Assembly: GCA_023653095.1 (NCBI GenBank)
Contig: JAMNXP010000001.1
Location: 574,853-638,852 of the forward strand
DNA: 64,000 bases
Reading direction: 5' to 3'
From: Bacteroidia bacterium
Lineage (GTDB): Bacteria > Bacteroidota > Bacteroidia > NS11-12g > UBA955
Positions within the stretch are counted from its first letter, which is position 1. Every line of letters begins with the position of its first letter. This document shows positions 18,669 through 63,514 of the stretch, piece after piece. The notes below the pieces were generated by a model. That model was not told the DNA's origin and did not search any database. It worked only from the letters and a program-made list of their open reading frames with translations. The position numbers and the translations under genes are program-made.

Positions 18669-19838
18669 ATGAATATTTCGTTTTTCGAAGATCTCCAAGA
18701 TCGATCCTTATTCCCACTCACCTTAACTCGCCCCGCCGCTCACCTTCGTATTGGCATTATGACCATTGCCGGAAAGTGGATTCACAGGCTGTATGCGTCT
18801 TCTTGGGGATTTGAAACGCGCGAATATTTACAACCAAAATTCCCAACCTTGCAGTCTCCCGCTGATCTCAGAATCTCTGGAAATACACTCCCCACCCCTG
18901 CCCTAGTTCAAGCGGTACTTGCTTTAACTGCTGACCAAGCTTTGGTTTCTTCCGAGGGACAATTAATCGCGGTAAGGTCATCCAACAGCAGCATCAATGC
19001 ATCAGACTACACGAATCAAGTGGTTTTTTCAGATTCGTTTAGCACCGTTAAACGTCCCTATCAAATCTTCAAATGGAATGCACAAGAAATTACCTTAGAC
19101 TTTGACTTCCTGACTCAAGGAAGAACCTCTATTGAAATTTCAGCCACTAACCAAATCATTGGTAAATACCCCATTTTCTTCGAAGAGGGCGCAAAAGCCG
19201 AATGCTGTATTTTCAACACTCAAGATGGCCCGATTTACATTGGCAAAAATGCTCAGGTAATGGAAGGCTCCATCATTCGAGGTCCATTTGCCATGGGCGA
19301 AGGCAGCAATGTGAAACTAGGTACTAAAATTTATCCAGGAACTTCTCTAGGTCCTTACTGCAATGTGGGTGGAGAGCTCAACAATGTAGTCATGCACGGT
19401 TATTCCAACAAAGGCCACGACGGCTTCCTAGGTAACGCCGTGTTGGGTGAATGGTGCAACATTGGTGCAGATACCAACTGTTCAAACCTTAAAAACACCT
19501 ACGAAGAAGTAAAAGTCTGGAACTACCAAAACGAACGTTTTGATAAATCTGGCGAGCAATTCTGTGGACTCATTATGGGTGATCACAGCAAATGCGGAAT
19601 CAATACCATGTTCAATACCGGCACGGTAGTGGGCGTTGGATGCAATATTTTTGGAGCGGGCTTTCCACGCCAATTCATTCAAGACTTCAGTTGGGGCGGT
19701 GCTCAAGGAATCGAACCCCACAAAATTCCACAATTCGAAAAAACCGCAAAGCTTGTCATGCAACGCCGCGGCAAAGAATACACCGACACAGATCAGAACA
19801 TCATGCGCTATATTTCTGCAACGTTTGGGGTGGGATAA
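18669..19838 (+). CDS. Alternative GlmU-type sugar nucleotidyltransferase/acetyltransferase
   Basis: 389-aa two-domain protein. The N-terminal half (MNISFFEDLQDRSLFPLTLTR, RPAAHLRIG) belongs to the Bacteroidota 'alternative GlmU' group (TIGR03991), thought to be UDP-N-acetylglucosamine diphosphorylase/glucosamine-1-phosphate N-acetyltransferase in peptidoglycan and LPS precursor synthesis. The C-terminal half is a left-handed beta helix of hexapeptide repeats (about residues 190-330: GPIYIGKNAQVMEGSIIRG, VKLGTKIYPGT, GAGFP). It starts MNISFFED just behind a TATTTTTG box. The last base of its TAA stop is the first base of heptamer array 2. Confidence 0.82.
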   Translation: MNISFFEDLQDRSLFPLTLTRPAAHLRIGIMTIAGKWIHRLYASSWGFETREYLQPKFPTLQSPADLRISGNTLPTPALVQAVLALTADQALVSSEGQLIAVRSSNSSINASDYTNQVVFSDSFSTVKRPYQIFKWNAQEITLDFDFLTQGRTSIEISATNQIIGKYPIFFEEGAKAECCIFNTQDGPIYIGKNAQVMEGSIIRGPFAMGEGSNVKLGTKIYPGTSLGPYCNVGGELNNVVMHGYSNKGHDGFLGNAVLGEWCNIGADTNCSNLKNTYEEVKVWNYQNERFDKSGEQFCGLIMGDHSKCGINTMFNTGTVVGVGCNIFGAGFPRQFIQDFSWGGAQGIEPHKIPQFEKTAKLVMQRRGKEYTDTDQNIMRYISATFGVG

Positions 19839-19977
19839 TCGGTTGTCGGTTGTCGGCCGATCACCGATCACCGATCACCGATCACCGATCACCGATCACC
19901 GATCACCGATCACCGATCACCGATCACCGATCACCGATCACCGATCACCGATCACCGATCACCGATCACCGATCACC
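19838..19977 (+). repeat. Heptamer array 2: 3 variant heptads plus 17 copies of GATCACC
   Basis: Twenty in-phase heptads (140 bases): ATCGGTT, GTCGGTT, GTCGGCC, then 17 perfect GATCACC units at 19859-19977. The first base is the last base of the GlmU-like stop codon. The far end contains the TGA stop of the convergent permease gene (19973-19975 on the minus strand). The array therefore is the whole intergenic space. It packs 17 GATC sites into 119 bases. Because 7 is not a multiple of 3, all reading frames across it stay open and encode a 7-residue repeat; these are not genes. Confidence 0.98.
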
Positions 19978-20869
19978 GTTTCCCAAACCCAACATTCAAC
20001 ACCATCCCTAATAAAACCAAAAACATACCAGCAAATTGGTAGAAATTGTAGGTTTCTTGAAACAAGGTGATGCTGAAAAAGGTGCCCCAAATGATGCCCG
20101 CGTAGCTGATGCTAGACACTAAGCCGGTGTTCGACTCTTGATAAGCGCGGGTCATGAAAAATTGGCCAATTTGGGTGAAAATGCCGGTTAATAGCAACCA
20201 CATCCACTGCGGCGCAGTGGGCATAAACCAAGTAGAAATCCCGGTAAAGGGAGCAATCAGAGAAATGGGTATGGTCACCAAGGGGAAATATAGAACCACG
20301 ACGTTGGGATTTTCAATGCCCTTTAGTCGTCTGATGGTGTTGTAAGCGAAAGCTGAAAACACAGCACCTCCAAACGCAGATGCAAGTCCCAAGGGAGTAA
20401 TGGATCCGGCAATGTGGTGAAACTTAAGGGTGCCATTGTGGAATTCGTGAGCTACTTCTGAAGTGAGTAAATTGACCATGAGCACACCAAAAAAAGTCAC
20501 TCCAAAGAACAACCATTGTCTGGATTGAACTTTTTCATCGCCCAATAAAAGAGCGAGCACGGTGGTGAAAATGGGAGACAAATAATGGATGACTAGGGCA
20601 TTTGAAAGCGGCATCAATTGCAAGGAATAGAAGTAGCAAAGCAGTCCCATAGAACCAAAAAAGCCGCGAAGGATGAGTAATTTAGGATTATTTCCCCAGG
20701 GCGATTGCTTCTGTTGAAAGAGAAAAACGGCGGAAATGAGAATTTGCACGAGGGCTCTAAAAAAAACGATTTCGGACACGTGCATGCCCGAAATCATTTT
20801 TACGGTAACGTTCATAAACCCAAATGCCAGACTGGCGATGAGCATCATCCAGACGCCTTTGGGAATCAT
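19973..20869 (-). CDS. EamA/DMT family permease
   Basis: 298-aa protein with ten predicted transmembrane helices in two EamA halves (first half from MIPKGVWMMLIASLAFGFMN, second from about residue 150). The drug/metabolite transporter superfamily exports or imports small metabolites; the substrate cannot be read from sequence. The final residues and the TGA stop are encoded by the edge of the GATCACC repeat array, so the C-terminus (GFGKR) is shaped by the repeat. The gene lies 9 bases after malate dehydrogenase and probably shares its transcript. Confidence 0.9.
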   Translation of the reverse strand: MIPKGVWMMLIASLAFGFMNVTVKMISGMHVSEIVFFRALVQILISAVFLFQQKQSPWGNNPKLLILRGFFGSMGLLCYFYSLQLMPLSNALVIHYLSPIFTTVLALLLGDEKVQSRQWLFFGVTFFGVLMVNLLTSEVAHEFHNGTLKFHHIAGSITPLGLASAFGGAVFSAFAYNTIRRLKGIENPNVVVLYFPLVTIPISLIAPFTGISTWFMPTAPQWMWLLLTGIFTQIGQFFMTRAYQESNTGLVSSISYAGIIWGTFFSITLFQETYNFYQFAGMFLVLLGMVLNVGFGKR

Positions 20870-55172: not shown

Positions 55173-55247
55173 TTTAGTTTAGAGTTTAGAGTTTAGGGTT
55201 GAGAGTTTAGGGTTGAGGGTTTAGGGTTGAGAGTTTAGAGTTTGGCG
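55173..55247 (+). repeat. Heptamer array 3: TTTAGGG/TTTAGAG/TTGAGAG units
   Basis: After a 5-base partial unit, nine perfect in-phase heptads run from 55178 to 55240, alternating TTTAGAG, TTTAGGG, TTGAGAG and TTGAGGG, and a decayed one (TTTGGCG) follows. The TTTAGGG word is identical to the plant-type telomere repeat; this is similarity of sequence only. The array fills the space between the aroC stop (whose TAA and last codons lie inside it) and the mazG start. Confidence 0.96.
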
Positions 55248-58300: not shown

Positions 58301-60337
58301 TTACCAGATTTTAACGCGGTCTTGATCGGCTTTGTACATTTTATGTCCTTCTTTGACACCAAAAGCTTCATAGAAACCAGGGTGATTTTGCAAAGGACCA
58401 ATAGCTCTAAAATATCCAGGCGAATGAGGGTCAGTAACCAATCTCATGCTCAATTCTTCGTCGCGAATTTTACTTCTCCAAATAGTTGCCCAACTTAAGA
58501 AGAAACGTTGTTGTTGAGTGAATCCATCCAACTTTTCAGTAACGGGTTCGCGCTTCAAATGAATCATCAATCCATCGTATCCGGCAGCTACACCGCCTAA
58601 ATCACCAATATTTTCACCCAAGGTAAACTCGCCGTTCACGAATTTTCCGGGCAATGCTTCGTAACCGCTGTATTGTTCAGCCAATTTCTTTCCTCTTTCC
58701 TTGAATTGCTTCAAATCTTGCTCTGTCCACCAATTTTGAAGGTTTCCGTCTGCATCAAACTGAGCACCCGCATCGTCAAATCCGTGAGAGATTTCATGTC
58801 CAATAACCGCTCCAATTCCCCCGAAATTCACTGCAGGATCGTTTCTAAAATCAAAGAAAGGAGGCTGTAAAATAGCTGCAGGGAATACAATCTCATTGTT
58901 CACCGGATTGTAATACGCATTCACCGTTTGAGGCGACATACCCCACTGGGTTTTATCAACGGGTTTGCCAAATTCGGCCATATTTTTAGCGGTACCCCAT
59001 TTAGCTGCATTCAGCATATTTTGGAAGTAACTTCCGCCTTGAGCATAAGTCTTAACATTCAATTGACTGTAGTCTTCCCACTTGTCAGGGTAACCAATTT
59101 TTACCATCATTTTATCCAATTTCCCGTTGGCTTTTTTCTTGGTTTCAGCACTCATCCAGTCCAAATTATTGATTCGAACGCGGTACGCTGCAATTACGTC
59201 GTCTACCATGGCTTTGGCCACTTTTTTCGCTTCCTCGGGGAAGTATTTCTCTACGTACAATTTGCCCAACGCTTCGCCCAAAGTACCGTTCACCACGGCC
59301 AATGCTCTTTCTTCCTGGGGACGTTGAGCCGGTGTACCTCTCAAGGTTTTTCCGTAGAATTCGAAGCGTAATTTTTCCATATCCTCGCTCAAATTCTCCA
59401 TTGCTCCGCGCATATCGCTCCATAAAAGCAAAGCTTTTAAATCTTCCACATCTCTCTCCTGAAACAATTTAGCGGTTGCTTCCATGTTCTTCACATCGCC
59501 CAAAATCACTTTATCAGGACTCACGCCCAAGGCCCTCAACATGCCATCTACGTCCATTCCCTTGACCATTTTCTTGAATTGCTTCAAGCTTCTAGGATTG
59601 TATCTCTTCGCAGGGTCGCGCATTTCCACACGTGACATCTTATTTTCTGCCAAATATTTTTCCATACCATAAATGGTTTCAGCAATGTTCTCTGGATTTC
59701 CCTTCCAATCGTATGCTTTAAACACATCTACAATAAACTTCTTATAGGCCACTTGCAATTTCACCGACTTCTCATCGGTCTTCAAATAATAATCTCTGTC
59801 AGGCAATCCCAATCCAGGTCCATAAGTATACATGACGTTCTGGTTGGAATTTTTCACATCCGCACCGACATAAAATCCCAAGAAAAAGCTACCCCCGTAA
59901 GGAGCGTATTTCACCATGTAATTAGCTACCTCTTTCTTGTTCTTCAGCATGGCAATTTCCATCAAATAAGGAACCACGGGCTTCACGCCTTGCTTGTTTC
60001 TATTTTGGATATCCATCACCGATGCATACAATGCAATAGCCTTACCTTGATCGGTTTCTGGCCCGTACTCTCCAGACTTCGCCGCTGTTTTCAACACCGC
60101 TAGCGCCATAGAATCGGCCATTTTACCGAGGGCATCAAACGCCCCCCAACGACCTCTGTCGCTAGGAATTTCGGTTTGCTTCATCCATTTCCCGTTCACA
60201 AACGAATAAAAATCGTCACCGGGTTTCACACTAGAATCTAGATAATTCAAATTCAGGGCTCTGTAATCACCACCCGCTACAAAAGCGGTCAAAAAAGCAG
60301 CCGTTGCTGCTGAAAATATGAGTTGTTTGAGGTTCAT
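58301..60337 (-). CDS. M13 family (neprilysin-like) metallopeptidase
   Basis: 678-aa exported zinc endopeptidase. N-terminal signal peptide (MNLKQLIFSAATAAFLTAFVAG). The zinc motif H514-E-I-S-H518 lies in GHEISHGFDDAGAQFD, the third ligand and the structural Asp are in GENIGDLGGVAAGYDG, and NAYYNPVNNEIVFPAAIL is the substrate-binding NAYY block. The final residues end in KIW, near the usual M13 C-terminus. Such enzymes cut peptides in the periplasm. Its leader, between a TATATTTG box at 60444-60451 and the start, consists mostly of heptamer array 4. Confidence 0.93.
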   Translation of the reverse strand: MNLKQLIFSAATAAFLTAFVAGGDYRALNLNYLDSSVKPGDDFYSFVNGKWMKQTEIPSDRGRWGAFDALGKMADSMALAVLKTAAKSGEYGPETDQGKAIALYASVMDIQNRNKQGVKPVVPYLMEIAMLKNKKEVANYMVKYAPYGGSFFLGFYVGADVKNSNQNVMYTYGPGLGLPDRDYYLKTDEKSVKLQVAYKKFIVDVFKAYDWKGNPENIAETIYGMEKYLAENKMSRVEMRDPAKRYNPRSLKQFKKMVKGMDVDGMLRALGVSPDKVILGDVKNMEATAKLFQERDVEDLKALLLWSDMRGAMENLSEDMEKLRFEFYGKTLRGTPAQRPQEERALAVVNGTLGEALGKLYVEKYFPEEAKKVAKAMVDDVIAAYRVRINNLDWMSAETKKKANGKLDKMMVKIGYPDKWEDYSQLNVKTYAQGGSYFQNMLNAAKWGTAKNMAEFGKPVDKTQWGMSPQTVNAYYNPVNNEIVFPAAILQPPFFDFRNDPAVNFGGIGAVIGHEISHGFDDAGAQFDADGNLQNWWTEQDLKQFKERGKKLAEQYSGYEALPGKFVNGEFTLGENIGDLGGVAAGYDGLMIHLKREPVTEKLDGFTQQQRFFLSWATIWRSKIRDEELSMRLVTDPHSPGYFRAIGPLQNHPGFYEAFGVKEGHKMYKADQDRVKIW

Positions 60338-60338
60338 T

Positions 60339-60429
60339 TTGGGAGTTGGGGGTTGGTCTTTGGTCTTTGGTCTTTGGTCTTTGGTCTTTGGTCTTTGGTC
60401 CTTGGTCCTTGGTCCTTGGTCCTTGGGGG
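60339..60429 (+). repeat. Heptamer array 4: TTGGTCT/TTGGTCC units
   Basis: Thirteen in-phase heptads (91 bases): TTGGGAG, TTGGGGG, TTGGTCT six times, TTGGTCC four times, TTGGGGG. The central unit is the same as GGTCTTT of array 1a, read in another register. It lies one base from the M13 start codon and makes up nearly the whole 5' leader of that gene. Confidence 0.97.
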
Positions 60430-60448
60430 ATTTGTAATAATTACAAAT
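60430..60448. promoter_or_regulatory. Perfect 9-base inverted repeat at the M13 promoter
   Basis: ATTTGTAAT (60430-60438), one base, ATTACAAAT (60440-60448). It overlaps the -7 box and the likely start point of the M13 gene, where an operator for a dimeric repressor would lie; a hairpin in the leader is the alternative. Confidence 0.5.
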
Positions 60449-60451
60449 ATA
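60444..60451 (-). promoter_or_regulatory. TAnnTTTG box of the M13 peptidase gene
   Basis: TATATTTG on the minus strand, 106 bases before ATG 60337, in the only non-repeat part of the gap (60430-60503). The transcript would run through heptamer array 4 as its leader. Confidence 0.6.
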
Positions 60452-60503
60452 ATAAATTAGTTGACCATTGAGTTGCGAATATCGCCAAGGAATCAGACAG
60501 AAT

Positions 60504-60594
60504 CGGTAATCGGTTATCGGTTGTCGGCTGTCCGCTGTCCGCTGATGGCTGATGTCTGATCACTGATCACCGATCACCGATCACTGATCACCGT
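60504..60594 (+). repeat. Heptamer array 5: a stepwise-changing ladder
   Basis: Thirteen in-phase heptads (91 bases) in which neighbours change by one to three bases: CGGTAAT, CGGTTAT, CGGTTGT, CGGCTGT, CCGCTGT, CCGCTGA, TGGCTGA, TGTCTGA, TCACTGA, TCACCGA twice, TCACTGA, TCACCGT. It converts the CGGTTGT type into the GATCACC type of array 2. The stop codon (60574-60576, minus strand) and the last six codons of the NagZ-like gene lie inside it. Confidence 0.97.
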
Positions 60595-63474
60595 CCCCAA
60601 CAATCTCCCCCTCCACCCTTTCTTGGCTAAGATGTTTTGTTGATCGTTGGGATAGGTGCGGTTGGATAGGAAGACGAAAACGGTTTGTGATTCGGGATCG
60701 GCCCAGAGCCATGTGCCGGTGAAACCGGAATGTCCAAATAAAGAGGTGGGCGCACCGGGGTAAACGTTGTTTCCGTGGGGTTTGTCAAAGCCTAGACCGC
60801 GTTGGTTGGCGGTGGTGATTCGTTCAGTGTGGTAGACTTCGGTGAATTTTTGAACGGTTTCGGGTTTGAACAGTTTGAAGCCATCGTAATCATTTCGAGA
60901 TGAGTTCAATAAGGCTTGCATGAATTTGGCCAAGTCAACCGAGTTACTGAACAGACCTGCGTTGCCTGAAAGTCCCCCGAGAAAAAAAGCAGAGGGGTCA
61001 TGAACTTCACCGCGAATAAGTCCTCTCCATGAAGAATCATATGCCGTGGGAGCCACATGAGCGGCCAAACCGAATTGATTGGGCTTATATCGGGTCATGT
61101 TCATGCCAAGGGGTTGGAATATTTTCTTGTATAAAAATTCATCTAATGGGAGGTCAGATAGATGCTCAACAAATTTGCCTAAAATGATGGCGTTCAAATC
61201 GCTGTAAAGATATTCAGCATTGAACCCGCCTCGAGGTTGGGTTTTGCAAATCCAACGCCAAACCGAATCACGCAATCGTTCGGGCAAGGAATCAAACAAC
61301 AAGGTATCGGGGTGACTAGAAATACGCTGATAGAGGGGCAAAAATGCCGGAAGTCCGGTTCTGTGTGTGAGAAAACTAGATATGGGAAGGTGGCTCCAAG
61401 GATATTTACGAACTTCCTTCCAATAGCGGCCAATGGGATCATCTAAACGGTATTCACGCTCTTCGAAAAGCTCCATCATGGCAGCCGTCATGCCTACAAT
61501 TTTAGTGATGCTGGCAATGTCATAGACGGTGTATTCATTCACGGGAAGCAGGGTGTCGCCATCAGAAAAATGCGCTAAGTAAGATCCGCGAGAGATGTTA
61601 TATTTTAATTGGCCATCTTTGAGAACCAAAAGCTGAGCAGACGTTGACGCTCCGCTGCTGATGATAGAGTCCATGAGGTCGTTCAACTGCTTGAACTTCC
61701 CGCAAGAATCTTCCTGGTTGAATTCAGGATGCATGGGAAAACTCGCTTCCCAATCAGATTCGCGACCAATGACCACGTTGTGGTTCAAAGGTTCACTAGA
61801 CAGCTTAACGGGTGGCTTTCCCAAGATATTACGTCTACCAAAAAGAGCATCTATACAGGCCGATTGAAATTCTTCGCCGGTCTCATAGCCCACCATGACG
61901 GGAATTTTCCGGGTTAAATCGCGTAAAGCATAGATGTTTCCTGTGTGAATCAATACAGGGCTGCTCTTGGTAGATTCTACAAACTGAACCAAGTTTTTCG
62001 GCAATTTCCGGGGACTGTTACTCCACATCCGTTGGTTTCCGTTGAAAATCACCCAACGTTCATCTTTCAAAGAATCAGACAATGCAATCAACGCTTGGGT
62101 AGAATCGAATTTCTTTGCCCAAATGAGTTGCACATTGGCATAGCATTCCATCCTGCGGATAAGTGTTCTCAATATTCCATCCCCAAAAACCAATAAACGA
62201 ACCGTGTCTTTTTGAAACGGCAAAAGATGTCCTAATTTTAGAGGATTGTTATCATCGTCTGAAGAGCCGTTGATCAACGTAATTACCTTGTCGATGGGTT
62301 CGTTTTGCTGGTAAACAGTGTAATTCTCAAAAATACGCTGATCAATGGTTTCGGGGTTGACTTCAAATTTGTGATACAACCCTAATTGATGCTTAGAGAA
62401 CAAAATTCGTTTTACTTTTTGGGCAATTTCAGCACTGTCTATCCAGCCCGAATCTTTTAGTCGAAGGGCTTCGGTGATGATTCCAGGCACATCCTCCGGA
62501 AAACAAATAATATCATTGCCTGCCTTCAATGCTCGAATTCCTGCATCCACGGCACCAAAATGATTGGCGATGCCTTTCATATTGAGTGCATCAGTGATGA
62601 TTAACCCCTCAAAATTCAACTCTTTACGAAGCAAATCAGTGACTACGCTCCTACTCAATGAAGTAGGCATACTGTCTAATAATGGAACCTTTAAATGACC
62701 CACCATCACCGACTTTACGCCATTTTTCAACATCAAATCAAAAGGCAAAAGCTCGTTTTGAAGGCTTGAAGGGGTATGATCAACCACCGGCAGTTCTTTG
62801 TGAGAATCAGCAATAGTGTTGCCATGTCCCGGGAAATGCTTGGCGCAACCCCAAACACCTTCGCTCTCCATTCCTCTGTTGTATGCGGCTGCCAAAGAGG
62901 CCGTCAGCAAAGGATTTTCGCCAAAACTTCGGAAGCCAATGATGGGATTGTTGGGATTGACGTTCAGGTCAACCACGGGTGCGTAATTGAGCTGAATTCC
63001 CAGCATCCGAAGTTCACGCCCTATGTACTTCCCCACCCTAAAGGCCCACTGAGTGTCTCTTGCCGCGCCCAAAGTTAACGGATAAGGAAACTTATGAATA
63101 TGATCTAAGCGCATGGCTGCGCCCCATTCGGCATCCATGCTGATCAACAACGGAATTTTTGATTCTTGCTGATAAAAGTTCAACGCCATGCTCTGATTGA
63201 CGGCCGTGCCTTGGAAAAATATGATTCCGCCCACTTCCCAATCTCTGATTTGCGATAACACCACAGGGTCAATTTCGGCGTTGCGCGTCCATGCCGGAAC
63301 CATCATGGTTTGTCCCAACATTTGCTTGAAAGTTAAGGTCTTTAATAAGGAATCTGCCCAAATTTCACTTTTTTCTTTCGGGGGATATGTATACGTTTCA
63401 GCACCCAAAACGGACTGCGAAAACACGCTTAAAACATTGAAAATCAAATATATAAATACAAATACCCTCCTCAT
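60574..63474 (-). CDS. Glycoside hydrolase 3 (NagZ-like) fused to a beta-lactamase-type serine hydrolase
   Basis: 966 aa from ATG 63474 (MRRVFVFIYLIFNVLSVFSQ signal peptide). Residues about 35-380 are a GH3 beta-N-acetylhexosaminidase: CAKHFPGHGNTIADSH carries the acid/base D-x-H loop and LIITDALNMKGI the nucleophile Asp. A linker domain follows. Residues about 610-960 are a class C beta-lactamase/esterase-type fold: S655-I-T-K658 in DIASITKIVG, YSDLNAIILG in place of YSN, and HSGFTGTW near the end. GH3 plus beta-lactamase-family fusions are known in Bacteroidota and are linked to cell-wall recycling. The last six codons are encoded by heptamer array 5. Confidence 0.92.
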   Translation of the reverse strand: MRRVFVFIYLIFNVLSVFSQSVLGAETYTYPPKEKSEIWADSLLKTLTFKQMLGQTMMVPAWTRNAEIDPVVLSQIRDWEVGGIIFFQGTAVNQSMALNFYQQESKIPLLISMDAEWGAAMRLDHIHKFPYPLTLGAARDTQWAFRVGKYIGRELRMLGIQLNYAPVVDLNVNPNNPIIGFRSFGENPLLTASLAAAYNRGMESEGVWGCAKHFPGHGNTIADSHKELPVVDHTPSSLQNELLPFDLMLKNGVKSVMVGHLKVPLLDSMPTSLSRSVVTDLLRKELNFEGLIITDALNMKGIANHFGAVDAGIRALKAGNDIICFPEDVPGIITEALRLKDSGWIDSAEIAQKVKRILFSKHQLGLYHKFEVNPETIDQRIFENYTVYQQNEPIDKVITLINGSSDDDNNPLKLGHLLPFQKDTVRLLVFGDGILRTLIRRMECYANVQLIWAKKFDSTQALIALSDSLKDERWVIFNGNQRMWSNSPRKLPKNLVQFVESTKSSPVLIHTGNIYALRDLTRKIPVMVGYETGEEFQSACIDALFGRRNILGKPPVKLSSEPLNHNVVIGRESDWEASFPMHPEFNQEDSCGKFKQLNDLMDSIISSGASTSAQLLVLKDGQLKYNISRGSYLAHFSDGDTLLPVNEYTVYDIASITKIVGMTAAMMELFEEREYRLDDPIGRYWKEVRKYPWSHLPISSFLTHRTGLPAFLPLYQRISSHPDTLLFDSLPERLRDSVWRWICKTQPRGGFNAEYLYSDLNAIILGKFVEHLSDLPLDEFLYKKIFQPLGMNMTRYKPNQFGLAAHVAPTAYDSSWRGLIRGEVHDPSAFFLGGLSGNAGLFSNSVDLAKFMQALLNSSRNDYDGFKLFKPETVQKFTEVYHTERITTANQRGLGFDKPHGNNVYPGAPTSLFGHSGFTGTWLWADPESQTVFVFLSNRTYPNDQQNILAKKGWRGRLLGTVISDR

Positions 63475-63482
63475 GAATTGCA

Positions 63483-63490
63483 CAAAGTTA
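63483..63490 (-). promoter_or_regulatory. TAnnTTTG box of the NagZ-like gene
   Basis: TAACTTTG on the minus strand, 8 bases before ATG 63474. The in-frame codon at 63501 lies upstream of the box, which supports the 63474 start. Confidence 0.55.
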
Positions 63491-63514
63491 CGAAGAACCA
63501 ACGCTTAAATAAGA

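Follow-up and report, generated by a model that had tools for sequence, protein, structure and literature searches.

Descriptions of heptanucleotide repeats in cyanobacteria, Bacteroidota, Xanthomonas and giant sulfur bacteria have so far stood apart, and no shared origin has been given for the repeats. The STRR heptanucleotides of cyanobacteria are intergenic tandem 7-mers of varying words. MITEs and REPINs are short, gene-less, dispersed palindromic elements that are derived from, or served by, a fuller element. A 23S rRNA intervening sequence (IVS) with complementary ends carries an S23p ORF directly preceded by tandem GACAGAT heptamers, whose copy number varies among strains, and the available portion of the report terms it selfish and possibly once mobile (PMC4990558). 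This paper, on the Coxiella IVS, is the only one in which our literature search met a link between S23 and heptads; subscription journals lay mostly outside the search and an earlier report is possible. TAACTGA heptamers occur in Beggiatoaceae, cyanobacteria and Bacteroidetes, mostly in 2–6 copies near start codons, according to the accessible text of another study (PMC4679880). In a third, likewise accessible in part, heptanucleotides of Calothrix PCC 7601 are mentioned and the GGGNATC and GGGGA(C/T)T heptamers of Xanthomonas and Nostoc are read as G-quadruplexes (PMC4692102).

The window, the 64,000-nucleotide stretch of a Bacteroidia draft genome analysed here, contains five intergenic tandem arrays with a 7-bp unit, all located between protein ORFs and none in a 23S rRNA gene. 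We consider it probable that they are gene-less arms of S23-type elements, that the gene has mostly been lost in this genome, and that the elements are kin to the S23-bearing rRNA IVSs. Like the 23S IVSs as presented in the available text, relatives of these arrays hold an S23-family ORF between complementary ends and have tandem heptamers varying in copy number; unlike the IVSs, which are located in 23S rRNA and removed by RNase III (PMC4990558), the elements described here occur between protein genes, their heptad arms are long and in this genome most have no gene. No S23/IVP ORF lies inside the window arrays themselves; one is present in related loci and, in a sister species, at the site of array 5.

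A likeness to the cyanobacterial repeats had been remarked upon in an earlier, sequence-only reading of this DNA. It goes beyond analogy, because cyanobacterial heptads, besides being intergenic tandem 7-mers of varying words, flank the same S23 gene family. STRRs are not known to have been described as element arms, the comparison here being with their description. Unlike MITEs and REPINs, which have fixed termini and a known transposase, the present elements have rewritable tandem heptad ends, and no known transposase was seen for them. The Avd proteins of diversity-generating retroelements form a related small family: a Nostoc S23 protein weakly matches the Avd model (E 1.4e-6, 28.5 bits), although its score lies under the curated cut-off of 80 and the array-rich sister species has no RVT_1 match. 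The TAACTGA repeats are also tandem heptamers, often mixed and patchy over distant phyla, for which sister genomes without them were noted and a mobile origin was considered; unlike ours they are single-word repeats, and neither an S23 link nor a polarity is reported in the accessible text (PMC4679880). The Xanthomonas and Nostoc heptamers share with the present arrays their dispersal, G-richness, a fixed G-run anchor, a noted inverted pair and positions unshared between relatives; in the accessible part of that report they are given the G-quadruplex reading and no S23 link (PMC4692102).

Heptad arrays in the source genome and its sister species

The source genome, G000, is a 2.04-Mb draft in 14 contigs, 75% complete. 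The five window arrays are as follows.

Array 1, 2780–2976, no strand assigned: GGTCTTT x7 (2780–2830), an 18-bp interruption with a GC-rich hairpin (2831–2848), then AGTTGAG/AGCTGAG/AGCTGACCG and CTAAACC words (2849–2976); gene-less, running from G-rich to C-rich.
Array 2, 19839–19978, no strand assigned: TCGGTTG x2 and TCGGCCG, then ATCACCG/GATCACC x17; between the convergent ORFs 18669–19838 (+) and 19973–20869 (−).
Array 3, 55176–55243, plus strand: AGTTTAG/GGTTGAG words; G-rich on the plus strand over its whole length, a single arm.
Array 4, 60339–60429, plus strand: TTGGGAG and TTGGGGG, then TTGGTCT/TTGGTCC; G-rich on the plus strand over its whole length, a single arm.
Array 5, 60501–60594, no strand assigned: AATCGGT, then TGTCGGC/TGTCCGC, then TGATGGC, then TGATCAC/CGATCAC; running from G-rich to C-rich.

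The number, period and, within a few bases, the positions of these arrays agree with the sequence-only reading. Its claim that the phase is unbroken in each array fails for array 1, which is split by 18 bp at 2831–2848. Small GC-rich hairpins between the two kinds of arm are seen both there and in a gene-less Brasilonema array (L289, about 1211–1240). The statement that every array borders a gene's 3' end is not borne out either: array 4 begins 2 nt away from the start codon of ORF 58301–60337 (−), and array 3 has the start of one minus-strand ORF on one side and the stop of the following one on the other. The stop codon of ORF 19973–20869 (−), at 19973–19975, falls inside array 2, and that of ORF 60574–63501 (−), at 60574–60576, is supplied by array 5; hence arrays reach into gene ends. 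Convergent gaps hold 9 of the 23 classified arrays of the wider sample against a background of 47/275 (p=0.02), while divergent gaps hold 2/23 against the same background of 47/275 (p=0.39). The statement that no array lies between divergent genes thus holds for the five of the window and gives way in the wider sample.

A lag scan of 464 kb of G000 (the window plus 20 stretches, two of which, L049 and L050, were picked owing to word-search matches there) found 31 segments with a lag of 7. Every other period from 2 to 30, multiples of 7 aside, gave 0–2 segments each in the same 464 kb, and first-order Markov resamples gave no period-7 segment. After merging, 30 arrays were counted in a wider sample of 664 kb, so that the five of the window belong to a genome-wide set, with other periods almost absent. 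Arrays share words, with GGTGATC present in 20 and GGTCTTT in 11 of the 30. The shared period, the shared words and a single polarity support the proposal that one 7-base system underlies all arrays. Their distribution is uneven: eight consecutive stretches (L154–L161, alternate 20-kb pieces of G000:C1:60001–360000) are array-free and other parts of the contig are crowded.

Polarity was measured in a strand-symmetric way, on arrays 70 bp or longer, from the G–C skew of their outer 28 nt. G-rich words lie on the left and C-rich words on the right, whichever strand is read, in 33 of 49 arrays of G000 and its sister species G002 (19/26 and 14/23), and the reverse order was found in none. Arrays from other Bacteroidota show the same order in 5/17 cases (6/18 if gaps of up to 100 bp are bridged), again with no reversal. 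Splitting arrays in half gave a G/T-rich to A/C-rich order in 12/30 arrays of G000 and 13/30 of G002, with 0 and 0 reversed and the rest one-sided or flat; random windows gave both orders about equally. The commonest word, GGTGATC, stood in the first half of its array in 22/22 readings. Ordinary hairpins outside arrays lack a G-to-C order (44 vs 54, with 15 ties; n=113). Heptad loci drawn at random from the phylum were too sparse for half-array keto skew (3 vs 1, with 14 all-keto and 12 all-amino; n=30). Set against MITE-type ends, the G000 arrays combine G-to-C order in 19 of 26 with poor complementarity of their own arms; arrays 3 and 4 are single-armed.

Two sources of strand bias were considered and rejected. 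A bias linked to transcription is at odds with the finding that none of the gene contexts examined reverses the polarity, and also with arrays 3 and 4, which are G-rich on the plus strand although minus-strand genes lie on both sides. Deamination around breaks would enrich T, whereas G000 arrays are richer in G and poorer in A at their left ends, with T near the genome level.

DNA identity between G000 and G002 around the window arrays is 82–96%. The G002 sample comprised 471 kb, of which 45 kb, in four stretches, had been selected for their match to G000 array sites. Twelve G000 arrays were compared, ten of which could be placed (L045:45 and L045:6373 could not). Words are kept in 2/10: arrays 3 and 4 are shorter in G002 by exactly 35 and 21 nt, and this bears out the part that the sequence-only reading gave to slippage. 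At 5/10 sites G002 has an array of different words; these are array 1 (where the G002 array is 439 bp), array 2 (214 bp), L045:1191, L050:3198 and L050:18022. No G002 array is present at 2/10 (L045:4689 and L050:6081), and one further array was found in G002 only. At the remaining site (1/10), that of array 5, 498 bp with an S23/PF05635 gene and heptads replace window positions 60507–60589. Words present in at least four arrays number 16 in G000 and 18 in G002, with one common to both. Seven other members of the genus were array-free in 320 kb at the same threshold, and 18 genomes of the family and order yielded one array in 400 kb. Copying of long multi-word tracts between arrays was rejected as a source of their words: a strict criterion found none, and a looser one gave blocks with at least four word classes that are 18–27 nt long.

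The earlier reading mentions neither polarity nor species-specific words, nor the S23 gene flanked by such arrays elsewhere.

Association of heptads with S23 genes

The G002 insert at the array 5 site encodes a 23S-rRNA-IVP/S23 four-helix-bundle protein (PF05635; TIGR02436) whose solved relatives, by sequence, are 2gsc and 2rld. A search of the genus found 14 full-length and 2 partial PF05635 loci in 10/14 genomes. Heptads lie within 500 bp of 8/14 full-length loci and are missing from the other 6/14. The S23 loci of G005 and G010 have heptads though the other stretches sampled from these genomes had none. One S23 gene occupies the same site in G000 and G002 (flanks 83–86% identical) and lies between a G-rich and a C-rich arm, the words of which differ by species. 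A partial S23 gene is likewise found at one site in both species (G000:C1:648022–648171 and G002:C17:25988–26137; L236 and L237, 3.1 kb at 96%); the G000 copy has a stop, and no heptads lie nearby.

The association extends beyond the genus. The best-scoring S23 loci were taken from 30 other Bacteroidota genomes, with PF05016 loci of the same panel as the control; this control was added because a first one, a 389-aa gene (heptads at 1/27 loci), came from near relatives only. Heptads lie within 260 bp of 18/30 S23 loci and 1/30 PF05016 loci (p=2.6e-6), or 0/24 when full-length PF05016 loci are counted. Anywhere in the locus, the counts out of 30 are 23 vs 3 at the laxest threshold and 11 vs 2 at the strictest. 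Other periods occur near the same 30 S23 genes in 0–5 cases. Period 8 is the highest of these (5/30), and as the next commonest flank period (L238–L267) it suggests that the unit may differ from 7 in some lineages. Among lags 3–21, lag 7 ranks first in 4/4 sets of S23 flanks and in 0/2 control sets. Arrays left of the S23 gene are G-rich in 15/18 cases and those to its right C-rich in 13/17.

Read in the opposite direction, the association is looser: an S23 gene adjoins 4/30 loci chosen for heptads alone. S23 genes are present in 298 of 395 Bacteroidota genomes, and the heptad pattern occurs in 153/298 genomes with S23 and in 8/97 without, counts that ignore phylogeny and genome size; the numbers of S23 genes in this comparison have a ceiling of about 11. 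The 60 arrays sampled from G000 and G002 yielded just 2 S23 genes, and the search of the window found no S23 remnant.

When the G002 S23 protein was used as a query, 11 plasmid records were returned, all cyanobacterial, with S23 loci between annotated protein genes. Heptads lie within 260 bp on both sides, usually inverted, in 10/11 of these loci, and on one side in the other; examples are AGTAGGG-gene-TACTCCC, between nrdB and nrdA, GGGAACA-gene-TGTTCCC and GGGAAAA-gene-TTTTCCC. Some plasmid S23 genes lie inside gene clusters (nrdB/nrdA, cas6/cas4 and two secretion genes; L268, L275 and L271). Among two-armed S23 loci, a word of the left arm recurs as its reverse complement in the right arm in 17/23, and the remaining 6/23, including the G002 gene at the window site, have no inverted word in common. 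Arms pair with their own partner at −22.3 kcal/mol and with swapped partners at −9.6 kcal/mol (p=0.002; n=21, two near-duplicates dropped). Complementary ends around the ORF, as in IVSs, are thus found in gene-bearing relatives, and the tendency is the opposite in gene-less arrays.

Occupied, empty and gene-less sites

In plasmid family 1, the filled sites L270 and L272 and the empty sites L280 and L281 have flanks 97–98% identical. The insert carries GTAAT at both ends, with 409 bp between; the empty site has one copy of GTAAT, which makes a clean target duplication of 5 bp. The empty sites have no heptads; the arms arrive along with the gene. In Brasilonema (L289) this site is occupied by a G-to-C array without the gene, and in Nostoc C052 (L282) by one arm and an S23 gene remnant. 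Plasmid family 2 has filled (L276 and L286), empty (L283, L290 and L291) and gene-less two-armed (L284) representatives. Elsewhere this site bears other inverted AT-rich heptads and palindromic repeats without an S23 match (L285 1223–1466 and L288 1773–1807), as if it were a hotspot. In Stanieria (L296 vs L273; flanks 96–98%), the gene-free plasmid retains the left arm together with the final few bases of the right one, a state that looks like a 461-bp deletion between short GCCT repeats. Apart from the L282 remnant, an HMM search of the empty and gene-less records found no S23 match.

Insertion is also seen in the nrd, TraM, secretion-gene and L274 pairs, with junctions that have diverged or been altered. 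At the cas6-cas4 site, the S23-free plasmid already has AATTACG heptads. Just one plasmid family, a gene-bearing one, shows a clean target duplication; the empty sites G and J of the G000/G002 comparison are too diverged to show one.

Origin and spread of the arrays

A complete element would consist of G-rich heptads, an S23/23S-IVP gene (PF05635/TIGR02436, about 120 aa) and C-rich heptads, the right arm usually holding the reverse complements of the left-arm words, so that the first words read inward from either flank are G-rich. We propose that arm, gene and arm move together, through a short staggered cut made by S23 or by a host enzyme, and that gene-less arrays arise when the gene is deleted between the arms. 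Tandem heptads would allow the arms to grow and shrink by slippage in steps of 7. The gene may also act as a spacer: without it, two one-word arms would form a near-perfect palindrome, and surviving gene-less arrays would for this reason tend to have arms of unlike words. Within one genome, words may become uniform as arrays recombine or fresh copies spread, and sister species would then show different words at the same sites. Such differences count against simple insertion, which does not predict them.

The order of events might be the reverse, with slippage products tolerated between genes and later entered by S23 genes, for which they would be a safe haven or a target. In G000 and G002 there are vastly more arrays than S23 genes, copy number shifts by whole units, and the heptads of the S23-free cas6-cas4 plasmid fit this order. 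We nevertheless regard it as unlikely, since the family 1 empty sites, in near-identical flanks, are free of heptads that come with the gene, and since it leaves the polarity and the matching arms on either side of the gene unexplained. Lower still do we place the idea that the arrays are RNA or DNA hairpins under selection, for example bidirectional terminators, whose heptad make-up is incidental. Arrays do fold better than dinucleotide shuffles (mean z −3.6 for 26 G000 arrays and −1.6 for 23 of G002) and somewhat better than arrays with shuffled heptad order (z −1.95 and −0.95), and convergent gaps are preferred. However, left arms of gene-less arrays pair worse with their own right arm than with those of other arrays (p=0.0008 in G000 and p=0.065 in G002 for all arrays; p=0.04–0.21 and 0.03–0.05 for bipartite arrays only), a result on which fold-back palindromes or hairpin selection were rejected. 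Array-free members of the genus do without such hairpins, and hairpins give no reason for a G-first order.

Templated addition of 7-base words, one of the mechanisms that the sequence-only reading had offered, would have a telomerase-like or DRT10-like reverse transcriptase add G-rich 7-mers to both 3' ends of a break before joining. G-rich words do run inward from both flanks, and DRT10 is reportedly a bacterial reverse transcriptase that synthesises repeats. The sole RVT_1 match among the 14 genus genomes lies at a contig end of G000 (G000:C11:326–886; L132), and addition of this kind would leave the S23 gene between the arms unexplained. We dropped this telomere-like route, which we hold to be the most improbable of the three, because G002, 99% complete and array-rich, has no RVT_1 match and the S23 anatomy is a simpler and better fit.

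Returning to S23-type elements as the source of the arrays, a broader and more tentative suggestion, on the doubtful side of even, is that the S23 four-helix-bundle protein is the putative mobility factor of a new class of minimal bacterial transposable elements whose heptad ends are recognised by spacing and G-to-C polarity, with the heptads across Bacteroidota, Cyanobacteria and beyond as their footprints. Ends recognised in this way, and not by a fixed sequence, could be rewritten while the element still moves. If the arrays are the arms of S23 elements, the polarity and patchiness of the repeats would follow, and heptad repeats and the S23 genes, so far without a known function, would become one testable question.
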